A stretch of 47,395 nt of DNA from Chloroflexota bacterium (GCA_009840945.1 VXMU01000123.1:1-47395); one strand, 5' to 3'; numbered from the stretch's first letter, positions 4,870 to 30,592 are shown. Numbers and translations: made by a program. Notes: generated by a model from the sequence alone, not told the origin.

Positions 4870-6093
4870 ATGGACTGGGCAGACACCGAAGAGCAGGCGG
4901 CATTCCGTGAGAACGTGCGCTCGTTCATCGACGGCAACCTGCCGCAGTACTACAAGGACAAGCGGGTCTGGAACAACGTCACCCTCGAGGATGACTGGCA
5001 GATGGACATGGTCCACGGCAGCGACGACGCCAAGGCCGCGGCGCAGGAGTGGTCCGACCGTATGTCCTCGCGCAACTGGGTCGCCCCGCACTGGCCGCAG
5101 GAGTACGGCGGCGCCGGCCTCACCACCATGGAGCAGTTCATCTTCAACATGGAGATGGCCGAGGCCGAGGCCCCCATGGTCGGCGGGCAGGGCCTCTCCC
5201 TGATGGGCCCGACGGTGCTCATCCACGGCACCGACGAGCAGAAGGAGCGCCTGCTGGCGCCGACGCTGCGCGGTGAGATGCTGTGGTCGCAGGGCTTCTC
5301 CGAGCCCGGCGCCGGCTCAGACCTCGCCTCGCTGCAGACGCGCGCCGTCCGCGACGGCGACGAGTACGTCATCAACGGCCAGAAGATGTGGACCTCCACG
5401 GCGCACAAGTCCAACTGGCTCTTCGGCATGTTCCGCACCGACCCGGACGCGCCGAAGCACCGCGGCATCAGCTTCATGGTCATGCCGCAGACCAACAACG
5501 GCATCTCGGTCCGCCCGATCATCTCGATGGGCTTCGAGCACGCCACCAACGAGACCTTCTTCGAGGACGTGCGGGTCCCCGCCAACAACGTCATCGGCGA
5601 GGTCAACCGCGGCTGGTACGTGGGCATGACGCTGCTCGACTTCGAGCGCTCGAACATCGCTGGTGCGGTCGAGACGCGGCGGCGGCTGCAGTCGCTGATC
5701 GACTACCTGCACACGGACCAGGGCGAGCTGCGGTCGCAGGACCGCGCGGCGCGTGCGCGCACGCTCATCGCCGACCGCTGGATCGAGTCCGAGGTGCTGT
5801 TCAACTTCTCGTTCCGCATCATCTCGATGCAGGCGAGCGGCCTGGTGCCGAACTACGAGGCCTCGACCTCGAAGATCTTCAGCTCGGAGCTGTCGCAGCG
5901 GACGGCGAACACCGGGATGAAGACGTTCGGGCTGTACGCGAACATCTGGGACCGCGCCCACGAGTTGACGCCGCTGGACGCGCGCTTCACGCAGCTCTAC
6001 GTGCACAGCGTGGTGTTCACGATCTTCGGTGGGTCGAACGAGATCCAGCGCAACATCATCGCGACGCGCGGGCTGGCGCTGCCCCGCAGCTAG
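4870..6093 (+). CDS. Acyl-CoA dehydrogenase, tandem copy 1
   Basis: A 407-residue FAD-dependent acyl-CoA dehydrogenase, predicted to introduce an alpha,beta double bond into an acyl-CoA thioester and pass electrons to an electron-transfer flavoprotein. The flavin/substrate signature FSEPGAGSDLASLQTRA is intact, as are WTSTAHKSNW and the C-terminal FGGSNEIQRNIIATRG. The medium-chain-type catalytic Glu that precedes the GTxxIQ motif is replaced by Gly (FGGSNEIQ). A Glu at position 259, in LLDFERSNIAGA, matches the position used by isovaleryl-CoA dehydrogenase-type enzymes and is the likely base. GAGGAGG lies just upstream of the ATG. It is the first of three tandem paralogues, each followed by the same hairpin. 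Chain length and branching preference cannot be deduced. Confidence 0.93.
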   Translation: MDWADTEEQAAFRENVRSFIDGNLPQYYKDKRVWNNVTLEDDWQMDMVHGSDDAKAAAQEWSDRMSSRNWVAPHWPQEYGGAGLTTMEQFIFNMEMAEAEAPMVGGQGLSLMGPTVLIHGTDEQKERLLAPTLRGEMLWSQGFSEPGAGSDLASLQTRAVRDGDEYVINGQKMWTSTAHKSNWLFGMFRTDPDAPKHRGISFMVMPQTNNGISVRPIISMGFEHATNETFFEDVRVPANNVIGEVNRGWYVGMTLLDFERSNIAGAVETRRRLQSLIDYLHTDQGELRSQDRAARARTLIADRWIESEVLFNFSFRIISMQASGLVPNYEASTSKIFSSELSQRTANTGMKTFGLYANIWDRAHELTPLDARFTQLYVHSVVFTIFGGSNEIQRNIIATRGLALPRS

Positions 6094-6111
6094 CTCCTCC
6101 TCGCACGCACA

Positions 6112-6148
6112 ACGCGGCGCGCCCCGGGCAACCGGGGCGCGTTCGCGT
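6112..6148 (+). terminator. GC-rich hairpin after acyl-CoA dehydrogenase 1
   Basis: A perfect 10-bp stem (6118-6127 with 6132-6141) closes on a GCAA tetraloop of the GNRA type. A further 5-bp outer stem (6112-6116 with 6144-6148) is separated by a small internal loop. There is no T tract, so it may terminate weakly or protect the mRNA 3' end. Near-identical copies follow the other two paralogues. Confidence 0.6.
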
Positions 6149-6226
6149 CTGTCCCCCGCGCGGCGCGAGCAGGCGCGGGATCGAGGGCTCGACGTGACGG
6201 GCCCACGCAGGCGTTGCCGCGGTTGC

Positions 6227-6232
6227 TAGACT
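6227..6232 (+). promoter_or_regulatory. Candidate -10 element (TAGACT) of acyl-CoA dehydrogenase 2
   Basis: TAGACT 48 nt before the ATG, in the same 9-mer context (CTAGACTCC) as upstream of the nitronate monooxygenase-like gene. No clear -35 box. Confidence 0.35.
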
Positions 6233-6280
6233 CCACTCGACCCGCACGCAGGAACGCCGAGCGGAGACCGGAGGCAGCGC

Positions 6281-7504
6281 ATGGACTGGGAAGACACCAC
6301 CGAGCAGGCGACGTTCCGCGAGGACGTCCGCTCGTTCATCGAGGAGAACCTGCCGCAGTACTACAAGGACAAGCGGGAGTGGAACGCCGTCACCCTGGAG
6401 GATGACTGGCAGGAACACATGATGCACGGCGGCGACGAGGCCAGGGCCGCCGCGCAGGAGTGGGCCGACGTGCTCTCCTCGCGCAACTGGGTCGCGCCGC
6501 ACTGGCCCAGCGAGTACGGCGGCGGCGGGCTCACCACCATGGAGCAGTTCATCTTCAACATGGAGATGGCCGAGGCAGAGGCCCCCATGGTCGGCGGGAG
6601 CGGCCTCTCGCTCCTCGGGCCGACGGTGCTGATCCACGGCACCGACGAGCAGAAGGAGCGGCTGCTGGAGCCTTCGCTGCGCGGCGAGATGCTGTGGTCG
6701 CAGGGCTTCTCGGAGCCGGGCGCCGGCTCGGACCTCGCCTCGCTGCAGACGCGCGCGGTGCGCGACGGCGACGAGTACATCATCAACGGCCAGAAGCTGT
6801 GGACCTCCTCGGCGCACAAGTCGAACTGGCTGTTCGGCCTGTTCCGGACCGACCCGGACGCGCCGAAGCACCGCGGCATCACCTTCATGGTCATGCCGCA
6901 GATCAACAACGGCATCTCGGTCCGCCCGATCACGACCATGGGCTGGGAGCACGGCACCAACGAGACGTTCTTCGAGGACGTACACGTGCCCGCCAACAAC
7001 GTCATCGGCGAGGTCAACCGCGGCTGGTACGTCGGGATGACGCTGCTCGACTTCGAGCGCTCCAATATCGCCGGCGCGGTCGAGACGCGGCGGCGGCTGC
7101 AGTCGCTTATCGACTACCTCGACACCGAGGACGGGCAGCTGCGGTCGCAGGACCGGGCGCAGCGGACGCGCGCGCTCATCGCGGACCGCTGGATCGAGTC
7201 GGAGGTGCTGTTCAACTTCTCGTTCCGCATCATCTCGATGCAGTCGAGCGGGATCGTGCCGAACTACGAGGCGTCGACCTCGAAGATCTTCGGCTCGGAG
7301 CTGGACCAGCGCACGGCGAACACGGGGATGAAGGCGTTCGGCCTGTACGCGAACATCTGGGACCGCGCGCACGAGCTGACGCCGCTGGACGCGCGCTTCA
7401 CGCAGCTCTACGTACACAGCGTGGTGTTCACGATCTTCGGCGGCTCGAACGAGATCCAGCGCAACATCATCGCGACGCGCGGGCTGTCGCTGCCGCGCGG
7501 CTAG
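6281..7504 (+). CDS. Acyl-CoA dehydrogenase, tandem copy 2
   Basis: A 407-residue paralogue of the preceding gene with no apparent gap between them; long blocks are identical, including EPGAGSDLASLQTRA and the C-terminal EIQRNIIATRG. Glu259 (in DFERSNIAGA) is kept as the candidate catalytic base, and the medium-chain-type Glu is again Gly. Differences concentrate in the N-terminal helical domain and in acyl-pocket segments (e.g. THALIADR-type and ITTMGWEHGTNE regions), which could tune chain-length preference. The ATG follows GGAGGCAGC. A candidate -10 box at 6227-6232 and a hairpin at 7531-7554 make it a self-contained unit. Role: beta-oxidation-type dehydrogenation; exact substrate unknown. 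Confidence 0.93.
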   Translation: MDWEDTTEQATFREDVRSFIEENLPQYYKDKREWNAVTLEDDWQEHMMHGGDEARAAAQEWADVLSSRNWVAPHWPSEYGGGGLTTMEQFIFNMEMAEAEAPMVGGSGLSLLGPTVLIHGTDEQKERLLEPSLRGEMLWSQGFSEPGAGSDLASLQTRAVRDGDEYIINGQKLWTSSAHKSNWLFGLFRTDPDAPKHRGITFMVMPQINNGISVRPITTMGWEHGTNETFFEDVHVPANNVIGEVNRGWYVGMTLLDFERSNIAGAVETRRRLQSLIDYLDTEDGQLRSQDRAQRTRALIADRWIESEVLFNFSFRIISMQSSGIVPNYEASTSKIFGSELDQRTANTGMKAFGLYANIWDRAHELTPLDARFTQLYVHSVVFTIFGGSNEIQRNIIATRGLSLPRG

Positions 7505-7530
7505 CACACCCCTCGCACGCAGCAACGCGG

Positions 7531-7554
7531 CGCGCCCCGGGCACCCGGGGCGCG
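7531..7554 (+). terminator. GC-rich hairpin after acyl-CoA dehydrogenase 2
   Basis: The same 10-bp CGCGCCCCGG stem as after copy 1 (7531-7540 with 7545-7554), with the loop changed to GCAC. No T tract follows. Confidence 0.6.
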
Positions 7555-7571
7555 TTGGCGTGGAGCGTGGG

Positions 7572-7577
7572 TAGAAT
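7572..7577 (+). promoter_or_regulatory. Candidate -10 element (TAGAAT) of acyl-CoA dehydrogenase 3
   Basis: The 11-mer GGTAGAATCGC is identical to that upstream of copy 1, suggesting that the promoter region was duplicated with the gene. Confidence 0.4.
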
Positions 7578-7625
7578 CGCCCGAGCAATCACGCGGCATC
7601 GCGACGCAGCGAAGGGAGCATGCGC

Positions 7626-8849
7626 ATGGACTGGGCGGACACGGAGGAGCAGGCGGCGTTCCGCGAGAGCGTGCGCTCGTTCATCGACGAGAACCTGCCG
7701 CAGTACTACAAGGACAAGCGTGTCTGGGCGGCCGTCACCCTCGAGGACAACTGGCAGCAGGACATGGTCCACGGCAGCGACGAGGCGCAGGCGGCGGCGC
7801 GCGAGTGGGCCGCCACCCTGGACTCGCGCAGCTGGGCCGCGCCGCACTGGCCGGAGGAGTACGGCGGCGGCGGGCTGACCACCATGGAGCAGTTCATCTT
7901 CAACATGGAGATGGCCGAGGCCGAGGCGCTGCTGGTCGGCGGCGGCGGTCTCTCGCTCCTCGGGCCGACGGTGCTCATCCACGGCACCGATGAGCAGAAG
8001 GAGCGCCTGCTGCCGCCGACGCTGCGCGGCGAGATCCTGTGGGCGCAGGGCTTCTCCGAGCCCGGCGCGGGGTCCGACCTCGCTTCGCTGCAGACGCGCG
8101 CCGTGCGCGACGGCGACGAGTACATCATCAACGGCCAGAAGATGTGGACCTCCTCGGCCCACAAGTCCAACTGGGTCTTCGGGATGTTCCGCACCGACCC
8201 GGACGCCCCGAAGCACCGCGGCATCACCTTCATGGTCATGCCGCAGGGGAACAACGGGATCTCGGTCCGCCCGATCATCACGATGGGCTGGGAGCACGGC
8301 ACCAACGAGACCTTCTTCGAGGACGTCCGGGTGCCCGCCACCAACGTCATCGGTGAGGTCAACCGCGGCTGGTACGTCGGCATGACCCTGCTCGACTTCG
8401 AGCGCTCGAACATCGCCGGCGCGGTCGAGACGCGGCGGCGGCTGCGCTCGCTCATCGACTACCTCGACACCGACGAGGGCCGGCTGCGGGCGCAGGACCG
8501 CGGCGACCGCGCCCGGACGCTGATCGCCGACCGCTGGATCGAGTCGGAGGTGCTGTTCAACTTCTCGTTCCGCATCATCTCGATGCAGTCGAGCGGGATC
8601 GTGCCGAACTACGAGGCGTCGACCTCGAAGATCTTCGGGTCGGAGCTGAACCAGCGCACCGCGAACACGGGGATGAAGGTGTTCGGGCTCTACTCGAACA
8701 TCTGGGACCGCGCACACGAGCGCACCCCGCTGGATGCGCGCTTCACCCAGCTCTACGTGCACAGCGTGGTCTACACGATCTTCGGCGGCTCGAACGAGAT
8801 CCAGCGCAACATCATCGCGACGCGAGGCCTGTCGCTGCCGCGCGGCTAG
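7626..8849 (+). CDS. Acyl-CoA dehydrogenase, tandem copy 3
   Basis: The third paralogue, 407 residues when started at the ATG that gives MDWADTEEQ, the same N-terminus as copy 1. An ATG two codons earlier (7620) is only one base from GAAGGGAG, whereas 7626 is seven bases away, so 7626 is preferred. All family signatures are present: EPGAGSDLASLQ, WTSSAHKSNW, DFERSNIAGA with the candidate base, and FGGSNEIQRNIIATRG. It carries the same Gly in place of the medium-chain-type Glu. The gene converges on the MFS exporter gene across a 73-bp spacer containing the shared hairpin. It probably shares electron acceptor and general pathway with copies 1 and 2. Confidence 0.93.
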   Translation: MDWADTEEQAAFRESVRSFIDENLPQYYKDKRVWAAVTLEDNWQQDMVHGSDEAQAAAREWAATLDSRSWAAPHWPEEYGGGGLTTMEQFIFNMEMAEAEALLVGGGGLSLLGPTVLIHGTDEQKERLLPPTLRGEILWAQGFSEPGAGSDLASLQTRAVRDGDEYIINGQKMWTSSAHKSNWVFGMFRTDPDAPKHRGITFMVMPQGNNGISVRPIITMGWEHGTNETFFEDVRVPATNVIGEVNRGWYVGMTLLDFERSNIAGAVETRRRLRSLIDYLDTDEGRLRAQDRGDRARTLIADRWIESEVLFNFSFRIISMQSSGIVPNYEASTSKIFGSELNQRTANTGMKVFGLYSNIWDRAHERTPLDARFTQLYVHSVVYTIFGGSNEIQRNIIATRGLSLPRG

Positions 8850-25654: not shown

Positions 25655-26518
25655 GTGAGTATCCGGATCCTGACCGACTCGACCGCCGACCTCAGCCCCG
25701 AGCTGGCGGCCGAACACAACATCGCCGTCGTCCCGGCGAGCGTCCTCTTCGGCGACGAAGAGTTGCTCGACGGCGTCGACATCCAGTCGGCGGAGTTCTA
25801 CGCGCGGCTTGCGAGCGACCCCGTGCTGCCGACCACGTCGCAGCCCGCTCCGGGCGCGTTCCAGGCGGCGTACCAGCAACTCGCCGACGAGGGGGCCACG
25901 GAGATCCTCTCGATCCACGTCTCGGAGAAGCTCAGCGGCACGCTCGGCTCGGCGCGCCAGGGCGCGCAGGGCGTCGAGGGCGTGCGCGTCGAGCACGTCA
26001 ACTCGGGGCTCGTGACCATGGCGATGGGCCTCGGCGTGATCGCCGCGGCGAAGGCCGTCGCGGGCGGCGCCAGCCTCGACGAGGCGCGCGCCGTCGCGGA
26101 GTCCCAGTTCGCACGCACGCACACCTACTTCCTGCTCGACACCCTCGAGTACCTCCAGCGTGGCGGGCGCATCGGCAGGGCGGGGGCGGCCATCGGCACG
26201 CTGCTGCGCGTCAAGCCGCTGCTGACCATCCGCGATGGCGAGGTCGAGGCGGCTGGACGCGTGCGCACGAAGAAGAAGGCCGTGGCCGACATGCTGCGTC
26301 GCGTCTCCGAGCTGGGCCCGATCGAGCAGATGATGGCGGCCCACGGTGCGAGCGCCGCAGAGTCCGAGGACCTGATCCGCCAGCTGCGCGCCGTCGCGCC
26401 CGATGCGGACCTCATCACCGGCGAAGTCGGTCCCGCGATCGGCGTCCACACCGGCCCCGGGTCGCTTGCCTGCGCCGTCGTGACCGCCGAGGAGTCCTCC
26501 CCAGCCACCGCGACGTGA
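25655..26518 (+). CDS. DegV family fatty-acid-binding protein (FakB)
   Basis: A 287-residue DegV protein that binds a fatty acid and presents it to FakA. Family motifs: IRILTDSTADLSPE at the N-terminus, LPTTSQPAPGAF near residue 60, ILSIHVSEKLSGTLGSARQ and the GGRIGRAGAAIGTLLRVKP segment that covers the lipid headgroup. Start: GTG 25655; upstream frame belongs to the end of fakA and the spacer. Its stop overlaps recG by GTGA. The chain specificity (saturated or unsaturated) cannot be read from the sequence. Confidence 0.9.
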   Translation: MSIRILTDSTADLSPELAAEHNIAVVPASVLFGDEELLDGVDIQSAEFYARLASDPVLPTTSQPAPGAFQAAYQQLADEGATEILSIHVSEKLSGTLGSARQGAQGVEGVRVEHVNSGLVTMAMGLGVIAAAKAVAGGASLDEARAVAESQFARTHTYFLLDTLEYLQRGGRIGRAGAAIGTLLRVKPLLTIRDGEVEAAGRVRTKKKAVADMLRRVSELGPIEQMMAAHGASAAESEDLIRQLRAVAPDADLITGEVGPAIGVHTGPGSLACAVVTAEESSPATAT

Positions 26519-29049
26519 CCGCCGACCTCAAGCTGCTCGGCGCGGTCCTCGAGCGCGAGTTCGACGAGGGCTGCGGCGACACGATCGTCGAGGGGGGCCT
26601 CGACGAGATGCTGCGCCTGCAGGCGCGCGACGAGCCGCCCGGCTCGCCGCTGCTGCGTATGGTCGGCGCGCTCCCCGCGGCCGGCTACCGCTCGCTCGAC
26701 CTCGAGGAGCGTCGGACCTGGCTGCGGCGCGCCCGCGCGACGGTCGTGCACGCGCTGGCCGAGGGCGCGAGCGGCGGCCGGGCCAAGTCGACGCGGCGGC
26801 GGGCGCCCGCGCGCAAGCCGGCGGCGGCGAAGCGTGGCGCGTCGAGGGCTCCGCAGCGCGCTCCCGCCGTCCTGATCCCGCCCGGCCCCGAGGCACTGGA
26901 GCTGCCGATCGCGCAGGCGCGGACGAAGCTGGGCCGGGCAAACATCACGCGCCTCGAGAAGCTCGACATCGTCACCGTCGCCGACGCGCTGCGCCACTAC
27001 CCCTACCGCCACCACGACTTCACGAAGACGGTGCCGATCGCGCAGATCCGCGTCGGCCACGAGCAGACGATCCGCGGCACGGTCGACCGTGCGCGCGCGA
27101 TCCGCATGGGACGCGGCGGCCGCATGCAGGCCACCGAGGCGACCATCAGCGACGAGAGCGGTGCGCGCATCCGAGTCGTGTGGTTCAACCAGCCGTACCT
27201 GGCGAAGCAGCTTCCCGCGGGCACCGAGATCGCCATCGCCGGCTCGGTCCGCGCGTACCGCGGCCGCCCGACGTTCGACAACCCGGCGTACGAGCGCATC
27301 ACGGACGAACTCCGCCACACCGGGCGGCTCGTGCCCGTCTACCACCTCACGCAGGGCCTGCCCCAGCGCGGACTGCGCGAGGCGATCGCGAGCCTCCTCG
27401 AACGCTTCGCCGACCGGCTGCCGGACCCGCTCCCGGCCGAGCTGCGCGCGCGCCGCGAGCTGCCGGGCATCGTCGAGGCGACGCGCCAGATCCACTACCC
27501 CGACGACCAGGAGCAGCTCGACCGCGCCCGCCAGCGTCTCGCCTTCGACGAGCTGCTCGCCGTGCAGCTCGGCGTCGTGCGCCGCAAACGCGAGCGCGAG
27601 CAGCAGGGCGACGCCCCGGCGTTCGAGGGTCGCGCGACCGCCGAGGCGTTCCTCGAGACGCTGCCGTTCGAGCTGACCGGCGCGCAGCAGCGCTCGCTCG
27701 ACGACGTGCTCGCCGACCTCGGGCGCTCGCAGCCCATGGGCCGGCTGCTGCAGGGCGACGTGGGCTCGGGCAAGACCGTGGTCGCGCTCGCGGCGATGCT
27801 CGCCGCTGTTGCGGCAGGCCACCAGGCCGTGCTCATGGCGCCGACCGAGGTGCTGGCGGAGCAGCACTTCCGCACCGTCTGCAAGCTCCTGTCGGGCGAG
27901 TCCGGCGACCTGCTGAACGGGATGGTCAAGCTGCCGTTCATCGAGCAGCAGCTCCAGGTTGTGCTGCTGACCGGCTCGACGCGGGCGAAGGAGCGTCGCG
28001 CCGCCCTCGACGCGATCCGGCACGGCGGCGCGCAGATCGCGGTCGGCACGCACGCGTTGATCCAGGAGGGCGTCGACTTCGACCGGCTGGGCCTCGCCGT
28101 CGTCGACGAGCAGCACCGCTTCGGGGTGATGCAGCGCGCGGCCCTGCGTGGTGGTCCCGACGAGGGCGAGGGGGAGGTCGAGGCCCTCGAAGCACCCGCG
28201 AAGCCGACCCCGCACCTGCTCGTGATGACCGCCACGCCGATCCCGCGCTCGCTCGCGCTCACGCTCTACGGCGACCTCGACCTCTCCACCATCGACGAGA
28301 TGCCGCCGGGCCGCACGCCCATCGAGACGCGCTGGCTCACACCCATCGAGCGCCCGGTCGCCTTCGAGCACGTCCGCGCCGAGGTCGCCGCCGGCCGCCA
28401 GGCGTTCGTGATCTGCCCGCTCGTCGAGGGCTCGGACGCCGTCGTCTCCCGCGCGGCGACCGAGGAGTACGAGCGCCTGCGCCGCGAGCAGTTCCCGGAG
28501 CTCGCGGACCGCATCGCGCTGCTGCACGGCCGCATGTCGGGCCGCGACAAGGACGCGGTGATGCAGCGCTTCGCCTCCGGCGAGGCGGCCGTGCTCGTCT
28601 CCACCGCCGTCGTCGAGGTCGGCATCGACGTCCCGAACGCGACGGTGATGCTGATCGAGGGCGCGGACCGCTTCGGCCTCTCGCAGCTGCACCAGTTCCG
28701 TGGCCGCGTCGGGCGTGGCGAGCACCCCTCGGCGTGCTTCCTGCTCGCCGACGACCCGTCGCCGGAGGCCGAGGAGCGGCTGTCGCTGGTCTCACGCACC
28801 TCGAACGGCTTCGAGCTGGCGCAGGCTGACCTCGAGCTGCGCGGACCGGGCGAGCTCTTCGGCACGCGCCAGTCCGGCATCCCCTCGCTGCGCGTCGCCT
28901 CGCTCCTCGACGGCCGCCTCATCGACGCCACGCGCCGCGAGGCGGAGACGCTGCTCGACGCCGACCCGGAGCTTGCCGCCGATGCCCACGCCACGCTGCG
29001 CGCCCTCGTCGAGCGCGCCGAGGCGGGCATCGTCGCCGAGGCGCACTGA
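26515..29049 (+). CDS. recG: ATP-dependent DNA helicase RecG
   Basis: RecG remodels stalled forks and Holliday junctions. 844 residues, longer than usual because the N-terminus (about residues 1-140) contains a small helical domain and a basic low-complexity linker (KSTRRRAPARKPAAAKRG). The wedge OB fold follows (TIRGTVDRARAIR to AGSVRAYRGRPTFDNPAYE). Then come the helicase motifs: GDVGSGKTVVA (Walker A), DEQHRFG (motif II), MTATPIPRSLALT, STAVVEVGIDVPNAT and QFRGRVGRG (motif VI). Start: GTG 26515, overlapping degV by four bases. Its final 36 bp, including the stop, are repeated exactly 815 bp downstream on the far side of an inserted nuclease gene. Confidence 0.94.
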   Translation: MTADLKLLGAVLEREFDEGCGDTIVEGGLDEMLRLQARDEPPGSPLLRMVGALPAAGYRSLDLEERRTWLRRARATVVHALAEGASGGRAKSTRRRAPARKPAAAKRGASRAPQRAPAVLIPPGPEALELPIAQARTKLGRANITRLEKLDIVTVADALRHYPYRHHDFTKTVPIAQIRVGHEQTIRGTVDRARAIRMGRGGRMQATEATISDESGARIRVVWFNQPYLAKQLPAGTEIAIAGSVRAYRGRPTFDNPAYERITDELRHTGRLVPVYHLTQGLPQRGLREAIASLLERFADRLPDPLPAELRARRELPGIVEATRQIHYPDDQEQLDRARQRLAFDELLAVQLGVVRRKREREQQGDAPAFEGRATAEAFLETLPFELTGAQQRSLDDVLADLGRSQPMGRLLQGDVGSGKTVVALAAMLAAVAAGHQAVLMAPTEVLAEQHFRTVCKLLSGESGDLLNGMVKLPFIEQQLQVVLLTGSTRAKERRAALDAIRHGGAQIAVGTHALIQEGVDFDRLGLAVVDEQHRFGVMQRAALRGGPDEGEGEVEALEAPAKPTPHLLVMTATPIPRSLALTLYGDLDLSTIDEMPPGRTPIETRWLTPIERPVAFEHVRAEVAAGRQAFVICPLVEGSDAVVSRAATEEYERLRREQFPELADRIALLHGRMSGRDKDAVMQRFASGEAAVLVSTAVVEVGIDVPNATVMLIEGADRFGLSQLHQFRGRVGRGEHPSACFLLADDPSPEAEERLSLVSRTSNGFELAQADLELRGPGELFGTRQSGIPSLRVASLLDGRLIDATRREAETLLDADPELAADAHATLRALVERAEAGIVAEAH
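29014..29049 (+). repeat. 36-bp direct repeat, left copy (recG 3' end)
   Basis: The last 36 bases of recG, ending in its TGA. They are identical base for base to 29829-29864. The base just before differs between copies, so 36 bp is the exact length. It bounds the nuclease insert on the left. Confidence 0.95.
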
Positions 29050-29141
29050 GTCCTTCCCAGCCCGAGACGCCCTTCCTCCGGACGCCTGGACGGCCGGGGG
29101 CGCCAGCGCGTCGCCCAACGAGTGGTGCGGATCCGCGACCG

Positions 29142-29147
29142 TATACT
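29142..29147 (+). promoter_or_regulatory. -10 element (TATACT) of the inserted nuclease gene
   Basis: TATACT, 33 nt before the ATG, with two purine-rich ribosome binding candidates (CAGGAG, GGGGAG) between. No consensus -35 box was found. Confidence 0.5.
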
Positions 29148-29179
29148 CCCGACTGACCGGACCAGGAGCGGGGAGCGCA

Positions 29180-29824
29180 ATGACCGGAATTGTCTACTGC
29201 CTCGAGAATCCGGCGATGCCGGATCTTGTGAAGATCGGCATCACGCAGGACATCGAACAGCGGATACGCTCACTCGATAACACGAGCGTCCCGCTGCCCT
29301 TCGTGTGCTTCGTGGCGGTGGAGGTAGACGACGCTAACGAGACCGAACAACTGCTCCATGATGTCTTTAGCGATCATCGGGTCCGGAGCAACCGTGAGTT
29401 CTTCGAGGTCAGCCCTGAGCGCGTAGCTGCTGCATTACGCCTCACGGGCGGTCGTGATGTGACCCCGACCACGGACGTGGTCGACGACCAGGAGGCGCAG
29501 GCCGCGCTGAACAAGGCTCGCAAGAAGCGCGCGCGATTCAATTTCGGGATGGTTGGCATCGAGGCCGGTGCGGAACTGCAGTTCCATTACCGGGGCATCC
29601 TGAATGACGGCCAGCCTTTCACGGCTGAGGTTGTGTCGCGCACCACGATTCTGTTCGAGGGCCAGGAGACATCACTCTCCGCAGCGGCCAGCACCATTAT
29701 GCAAAGACACGGTGTCACCTGGACCGCCAAGTGGTCGCCCTCGGGTCCCTTGCATTGGTACTACGAAGGCGAGTCGCTGGACGAGCTAAGGCGAGCGATG
29801 GAGAACGAGGGTGGCGACGAGTAA
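29180..29824 (+). CDS. T5orf172 (GIY-YIG-like) nuclease with RAMA/DUF4357-like C-terminus
   Basis: A 214-residue protein. Residues 1-95 match the T5orf172 branch of the GIY-YIG nucleases: GIVYCLENPAMPDLVKIGIT (GIY-like at 3-5, KIG at 18-20), arginines at 28 and 30, and the acidic motif NREFFEV with Glu73, so a catalytic set is retained. A charged linker (KARKKRARF) leads to a C-terminal domain (about 120-205) with GIEAGAELQF, TILFEGQETSLSAAAS and a WSPSGPLHWYYEGE end. This resembles RAMA/DUF4357 modules found beside restriction enzymes. Codon use is more AT-rich than neighbours. It is the only gene in an insert flanked by a 36-bp duplication of the recG end. A free-standing homing-type or defence nuclease is the best guess; activity is not proven. 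Confidence 0.8.
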   Translation: MTGIVYCLENPAMPDLVKIGITQDIEQRIRSLDNTSVPLPFVCFVAVEVDDANETEQLLHDVFSDHRVRSNREFFEVSPERVAAALRLTGGRDVTPTTDVVDDQEAQAALNKARKKRARFNFGMVGIEAGAELQFHYRGILNDGQPFTAEVVSRTTILFEGQETSLSAAASTIMQRHGVTWTAKWSPSGPLHWYYEGESLDELRRAMENEGGDE

Positions 29825-29828
29825 ACAC

Positions 29829-29864
29829 CGCGCCGAGGCGGGCATCGTCGCCGAGGCGCACTGA
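29829..29864 (+). repeat. 36-bp direct repeat, right copy
   Basis: Exact copy of 29014-29049. It contains a GAGG 10 nt before the GTG of the AlkD-like gene, so the duplication keeps that gene's translation signal. Confidence 0.95.
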
Positions 29865-29866
29865 CC

Positions 29867-30592
29867 GTGGCGGCCGACCTCGACGCGCTCGTGCGCGAGG
29901 TGGACGAGCGCCTCGATGCCGGGGCGGACCCCGGCCGCGCCGAACACGGCGAGGGCTACCACGCCACCTCGATGCGGATCCGAGGTGTCCCGACACCCGT
30001 GCTGCGGAGCATCGCGGGCGACCTCGCGCGCCGGCTCAAGATGGAGGCCGACATAACCATCGAGTTGGCCTCGAGGCTCGTCGGGAGCGGCGGCTTCGAC
30101 GAGCGGACGCTCGGCTACATCCTCCTCTCGCGGCACCGCGCGGCGCGCACGTCGCTCGACGGAGATCGGATCGAGGCGCTGGGCGAGGGCATGGACAACT
30201 GGGCCTCGGTCGACGCGTACTGCTCGCTCGTGGCGGGGCCGGCGTGGCTCGCGGGCCGCCTCGAGGACGCCCGCGTCAAGAGGTGGGCGCGCTCGCCCGA
30301 CCGTTGGTGGCGACGCGCCGCGCTCGTCTCGACGACGGCGCTCAACAAGAAGCGCGCCCTCGGCGGCAGGGGCGACGCCGCGCGCACCCTCGCGCTCTGC
30401 GAGCGGCTCGCGGCCGACCGCGACGACATGGTGGAGAAAGCCGTCTCGTGGGCGCTGCGCACCCTCGCCGCCCGCGACCCCTCAGCCGTCCGAGGCTTCC
30501 TCGACGTGCACGAGGAGGTCCTGGCCGCGCGCGTGCTGCGCGAGGTCCGGCACAAGCTGGAGACCGGCCGCAAGAACCCTCGACGCGCCTAG
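29867..30592 (+). CDS. DNA alkylation repair protein, AlkD-like HEAT-repeat family
   Basis: A 241-residue all-helical protein of the AlkC/AlkD family, whose members excise bulky or cationic N3/N7-alkyl purines without base flipping. Typical segments: MRIRGVPTPVLRSIAGDLAR near the N-terminus, MDNWASVDAYCSLVAG, RWWRRAALVSTTALNKK and DDMVEKAVSWALRTLAARDP, followed by RHKLETGRKNP. The WxxVD and EKAVSWALR features match the family's DNA-binding concave face. Start: GTG 29867, two bases after the right copy of the 36-bp repeat. Before the insert it would have followed recG by two bases in one repair operon. Confidence 0.86.
   Translation: MAADLDALVREVDERLDAGADPGRAEHGEGYHATSMRIRGVPTPVLRSIAGDLARRLKMEADITIELASRLVGSGGFDERTLGYILLSRHRAARTSLDGDRIEALGEGMDNWASVDAYCSLVAGPAWLAGRLEDARVKRWARSPDRWWRRAALVSTTALNKKRALGGRGDAARTLALCERLAADRDDMVEKAVSWALRTLAARDPSAVRGFLDVHEEVLAARVLREVRHKLETGRKNPRRA

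Follow-up and report, generated by a model that had tools for sequence, protein, structure and literature searches.

The recG-alkD locus

The window analysed here, a whole stretch of 47,395 nucleotides from a Chloroflexota bacterium, carries between its recG gene and an AlkD-like gene (alkD) a short segment with a single nuclease gene, bounded on both sides by the same 36 bp of the recG 3' end. The features of the locus, all on the plus strand, are as follows:

26515..29049, plus strand: recG, the upstream host gene, 844 aa (Pfam RecG_wedge, DEAD, Helicase_C and RecG_dom3_C)
29014..29049, plus strand: left copy of the 36-bp repeat, which is the recG 3' end including its stop codon (36/36 identity to 29829-29864)
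29050..29828, plus strand: inserted segment of 779 bp, missing from three congeneric genomes and without terminal inverted repeats
29050..29179, plus strand: non-coding leader of the insert, 130 bp (from the sequence and a consensus scan)
29180..29824, plus strand: gene for a GIY-YIG (T5orf172) nuclease with a predicted RAMA domain, 214 aa (PF10544, 2e-17; PF13455, 1e-16; PADLOC PDC-S57 family)
29829..29864, plus strand: right copy of the 36-bp repeat, a non-coding remnant of the recG tail that carries the putative ribosome binding site of alkD (GAGG)
29867..30592, plus strand: AlkD-like DNA alkylation repair gene, the downstream host gene (Pfam PF08713, E=3e-44)

The two repeat copies are spaced 815 bp apart. 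By comparison, when the local 2.5 kb was simulated 500 times with an order-3 Markov model, no exact repeat exceeded 17 bp, and elsewhere in the window exact repeats of at least 30 bp occur only among three tandem acyl-CoA dehydrogenase paralogs (4870-8849). The 36-mer has an internal direct repeat, GCCGAGGCG occurring twice, and no inverted arms. Between the copies there is one convincing gene, that of the nuclease, with a GC content of 0.603 against 0.742 for recG and alkD, and a GC3 of 0.749 against 0.96 and 0.94, respectively; the 779-bp unit thus encodes no integrase or transposase. The leader is host-like in GC content (0.73), and a consensus scan of its 130 bp returned neither a sigma-70 promoter nor an intrinsic terminator. 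An assembly artefact is an unlikely source of the repeat, because a chimera would have to make two matching joins around foreign DNA.

Both host genes have been spared: recG keeps an intact C-terminus, ending in VAEAH and the stop codon, and the start of alkD is intact after the duplication. Indeed, in-silico removal of one 815-bp unit yields recG...TGA-CC-GTG(alkD), which is the junction found in two congeneric genomes. These results bear out most of what a sequence-only reading of this DNA had claimed, namely the exact repeat, the single T5orf172 gene of lower GC than its neighbours, the return to recG, two bases and alkD on deletion of 815 bp, the sparing of both genes and the lack of an integrase or transposase. 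The same reading had placed the ribosome binding site of alkD inside the repeat; this is plausible, but solely in the form of the GAGG at 29853-29856, 10 nt ahead of the alkD GTG.

The empty site in congeneric genomes

A search of close relatives for recG-alkD junctions with and without the insert, as the sequence-only reading had proposed, was made in three other genomes of the same genus (G035, G036 and G037), and none of them carries the insert. In G035 and G037 recG is joined directly to alkD and there is a single copy of the 36-bp sequence, one base off the window copy in each. In G036 (locus L304) recG is followed by an alkD remnant, about 21 codons near the alkD end, again without the nuclease. 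Because two of these genomes are empty at the site and the third lacks the nuclease, the empty arrangement is ancestral and the insert derived. The nuclease segment is a real, recent insertion between recG and alkD; the site is occupied by the nuclease in the window alone, and within this sample of three congeners the insert is specific to the window's lineage. The closest nuclease relative in the taxonomic family, in genome G041, is 59% identical. We also observed that alkD is otherwise deleted in G036, which is a second kind of instability at the recG-alkD junction.

The window's own genome contains one copy of the nuclease gene, and the DNA of the insert has no strong second match there; on both counts a multi-copy element in this genome was rejected.

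A GIY-YIG nuclease with a predicted RAMA domain

The N-terminal half of the protein is a T5orf172/MUG113 domain of the GIY-YIG group (Pfam; T5orf172 E=2e-17), in which Y6, K18, G20, R28 and E73 of the core are invariant across 42 aligned relatives and H60 is nearly so. The C-terminal half gave no Pfam sequence match. An AlphaFold (AF2) model of the protein has a pLDDT of 90.5 and a separate model of the C-terminal half one of 75, and for both models the best fold match was 7ydw, the MPND RAMA domain bound to DNA, followed by 6pbd (CcrM). The C-terminal-half model matched 7ydw with E=1.6e-3, prob 1.00 and TM 0.51/0.59; the E-values of the fold matches are modest (about 1e-2 and 2e-3), with three RAMA-bearing chains in the top three ranks. 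With RAMA domains as its best predicted-fold matches, the C-terminal half is predicted to be a domain of this fold.

The PADLOC profile PDC-S57, a single-gene phage defence candidate, matches the protein over residues 2-209 (E=1e-65), that is, over its full length, and we found no difference between the two; the entry has candidate status and says nothing on the mode of insertion. The nuclease is probably a virus-defence enzyme, and we infer a single-gene, type IV-like one, in which the RAMA domain would read DNA and the GIY-YIG domain would cut it. Two-domain GIY-YIG-RAMA proteins have been mentioned as possible adenine-methylation readers or type IV restriction enzymes (PMC11037411), in a work in which winged-helix wH-GIY-YIG fusions are the only ones tested and the RAMA fusions are a mention. 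The RAMA domain of the present nuclease possibly reads adenine methylation; for the MPND RAMA domain, structural work did not confirm a 6mA preference (PMC9963953). Three relatives (L031, L033 and L042; proteins of 269-271 aa) have the same T5orf172 N-terminal half joined to a different, longer C-terminal half, which suggests that the reader domain may be swapped between relatives.

Relatives and their gene context

Full-length relatives of the nuclease were found across many phyla. Plasmids gave no nuclease match at 1e-20 and 50,697 phage records no match spanning 80% of the query; a plasmid or phage passenger was rejected on these results. A scan of neighbouring genes covered 19 loci and took in both sides at one of these; 11 of the 18 other typed loci adjoin type I restriction, other methylase or SNF2/HNH/MrcB-type genes (L046, L047, L054, L059, L081, L082, L084, L091, L109, L111 and L112). 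This context, together with the PDC-S57 match, favours a putative defence role over homing. At four other loci the nuclease gene lies directly behind a housekeeping gene: rpoD (L045 and L049), glmS (L064) and cobT (L090). The two rpoD cases are both from Rhodobacteraceae, with nucleases 13-24 bp behind rpoD that are about 63% identical to each other, and the rpoD 3' end may be occupied in both through common descent or through repeated insertion. L049 is a clean insert 3' of rpoD, without a flanking repeat.

Flanking duplications at other loci

Flanking repeats were sought by comparing the 500 bp before the nuclease gene with the 350 bp after it, in 79 relatives and then in 28 more, which makes 107 relatives whose flanks could be used. 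A repeat scoring at least 17 was found in 7 of the 107 and in 6 of 697 control windows taken from the same loci (Fisher p=5e-4); because these controls were not matched for one-gene insertion, the enrichment does not show that the nuclease family causes duplication. The second batch of 28 added no further repeat scoring at least 17, and in about 100 of the 107 relatives no flanking duplication is recognisable. Of the seven scoring repeats, four (L051, L054, L069 and L076) could not be read as pieces of host genes. The one in L054 lies close to a sequence that resembled a tRNA by eye; ARAGORN finds no tRNA there, and for this reason it was not counted.

In the other three relatives, which came from the kind of search for matching duplications that the sequence-only reading had proposed, the nuclease does lie between direct copies of a piece of a host gene: (i) In L090 the tail of cobT is duplicated over 213 bp (204/213 identical). 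The insert provides the C-terminus of the attached cobT copy (TKKTGGR), and the downstream copy keeps a different one, VKQAKTRTRRRVA. (ii) In L064, from SAR86, the tail of glmS is duplicated over 31 bp that span the stop codon; the host gene was recognised by its SIS and glutamine amidotransferase domains (Pfam). (iii) In L094 an insert of 1,075 bp, with an intact tRNA-Gln gene on one side, is flanked by a duplicated part of that gene, 27 bp long (26/27 identical), corresponding to the 5' part of the tRNA. Many Bradyrhizobium genomes have the same tRNA-Gln joined directly to the sequence that lies beyond the L094 insert, and thus show the empty site. The Bradyrhizobium genome bin of L094 (G397) has, on a second contig (C228), an uninterrupted tRNA-Gln site, which may be a second tRNA copy, a strain mixture or contamination.

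Most differences between the copies fall on third codon positions (8 of 9 for L090, 4 of 4 for L064; combined p about 2e-5), which suggests two functional alleles and not a gene with a decayed copy. Either the insert brought a tail from another strain, as fungal mitochondrial ORFs do (PMC3630166), or recombination later exchanged the attached tail; the window, whose copies are identical, leaves the origin of the tail undecided. With the window, the duplications thus measure 27, 31, 36 and 213 bp, and no shared ends, terminal inverted repeats or integrase were found among the window insert and the three comparison inserts. A transposon with inverted ends was rejected, there being no terminal inverted repeat in any of them. 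As a separate observation, the DNA right after the glmS stop codon differs between most of the 19 SAR86 congeners examined (L064, L227-L245), which makes the glmS 3' end a cargo hotspot in SAR86.

Known systems and the mode of insertion

To the knowledge of the sequence-only reading, this form of element was undescribed. That claim is wrong, because restriction-modification (R-M) genes offer a precedent: 'insertion with long target duplication' has been described for them, also where they moved without linkage to a recognised mobile element (PMC3874152, PMC3031569, PMC1643837), with Nobusato et al. 2000 and Furuta et al. 2010 as the sources cited in these three papers, and a review gives the duplications as of the order of 100 bp (PMC3874152). 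A second precedent comes from fungal mitochondria, where endonuclease ORFs duplicate the C-terminal part of a host gene, as in Allomyces atp6 and in Glomus atp6, atp9, cox2 and nad3 (PMC3630166). What appears to be undescribed in the literature searched is a long target duplication with a solitary GIY-YIG-RAMA gene, here at four loci.

The present case has these features in common with the R-M genes: the gene of a DNA-cutting enzyme sits in the chromosome between long direct copies of its target, relatives have the empty site, no transposase or integrase is linked, the GC content is lower, repeat length varies and component genes are able to move alone. In spite of these similarities, there are differences: (i) the gene here is a solitary GIY-YIG-RAMA gene without a methylase of its own; (ii) the duplication is 36 bp in the window as compared with about 100 bp, and three of the four cases are shorter than that; (iii) the hosts are Chloroflexota, Rhizobiales, SAR86 and Bradyrhizobium, whereas the R-M cases are from H. 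pylori.

On balance, we think it probable, though far from settled, that a solitary restriction-type gene was acquired horizontally and entered by insertion with long target duplication. The GIY-YIG-RAMA gene would have arrived as such a solitary gene; a break or staggered opening would have arisen at the recG-alkD target; and the incoming DNA would have repaired it, the target piece being copied on both sides, by host functions that were possibly helped by the nuclease. This order of break, DNA capture and target copying is our inference. The duplication left the recG end and the alkD start intact, so selection tolerates the insert, and later recombination between the 36-bp copies could cleanly delete the 815-bp unit. 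The lack of shared ends or terminal inverted repeats, together with duplications of 27-213 bp, speaks against the action of a transposase or of a single recombinase; unshared ends and this range of lengths fit the long, variable target duplication of R-M genes. A role of the nuclease in making the break is possible, and unproved, because most relatives have no duplication and L049 is clean behind rpoD.

Homing offers another explanation: the nuclease would cut the empty gene end, and repair would install the nuclease together with the donor's copy of the tail, leaving the recipient's tail behind. GIY-YIG/T5orf172 nucleases include phage homing endonucleases of the same nuclease domain family (PMC10448857), and in the fungal ORFs, one of which is GIY-YIG, the endonuclease ORF likewise follows a tail that replaces that of atp6, atp9, cox2 or nad3, with the native tail displaced downstream (PMC3630166). 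As there, the tail differences in L090 and L064 are mainly synonymous, as if from functional alleles, and the attached copy in L090 runs on into its new C-terminus. However, synonymous differences would also result if an ordinary duplication were followed by allelic replacement of the attached tail, and in the window, with identical copies one base off each congener, a foreign tail is not evident, whereas the fungal ORFs, which are in organelle genomes, carry a clearly foreign tail. Homing activity has been reported for the fungal ORFs and is putative for the window nuclease. The four targets are unrelated, with no common target sequence apparent, and the family is linked to restriction systems and not to one homing site. 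Moreover, phage T5orf172 homing endonucleases reside in phage genomes and carry CapR, DUF723 or DUF4397 DNA-binding domains (PMC10448857), zinc-finger-type domains among which the RAMA fold is not found; the window family had no match at 80% coverage in the phage records. We consider homing unlikely, if still worth weighing. A broader proposal, in which GIY-YIG-RAMA genes would be self-moving one-gene elements whose nuclease opens a conserved host-gene end and inserts with a copy of that end, the native piece staying downstream, has indirect evidence in its favour and seems to us doubtful as well.

The segment could also be integrative cargo moved in trans; a tyrosine or serine recombinase encoded at another place would then use the repeats as att sites, and the nuclease would be a passenger. 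Integration at the 3' ends of genes and at tRNA genes is a classic pattern, and the glmS hotspot of SAR86 would be in keeping with such traffic. Nevertheless, the repeats, from 27 to 213 bp, share no common core or insert end; the recG 36-mer has direct and not inverted internal repetition; the three congeners have recG followed by alkD or its remnant, with no other cargo; and in L094 the duplicated piece is the 5' part of the tRNA. An integrase in the insert, a common att core and shared ends, by which a tyrosine-recombinase element would be recognised, were all absent, and we regard this explanation as quite improbable. Finally, a stray double-strand break at recG-alkD repaired with foreign DNA, as a one-off duplication unrelated to the gene carried, would agree with the many relatives without duplications and with the 130 bp of non-coding DNA of host-like GC, any DNA being insertable in this way in principle, but is very hard to credit when three more duplications accompany members of this family, in unrelated bacteria and at unrelated genes, and when flanking repeats are more frequent than in the control windows.

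The way in which solitary defence genes spread in the absence of transposases has yet to be settled. This nuclease family provides four naturally marked insertion events, two of them with the empty site, in different host genes of unrelated bacteria, and thereby makes the idea of insertion with long target duplication testable with one small enzyme. Should the break be the work of the nuclease, a single protein would combine defence with its own means of spread; the self-moving proposal, if true, would give a bacterial counterpart of the tail-duplicating ORFs of fungal mitochondria, with defence and homing in one protein.

Elsewhere in the window, the three tandem acyl-CoA dehydrogenase paralogs at 4870-8849 (407, 407 and 409 aa; identified by sequence and not by profile) share exact repeats of up to 110 bp, which points to recent tandem duplication or gene conversion.
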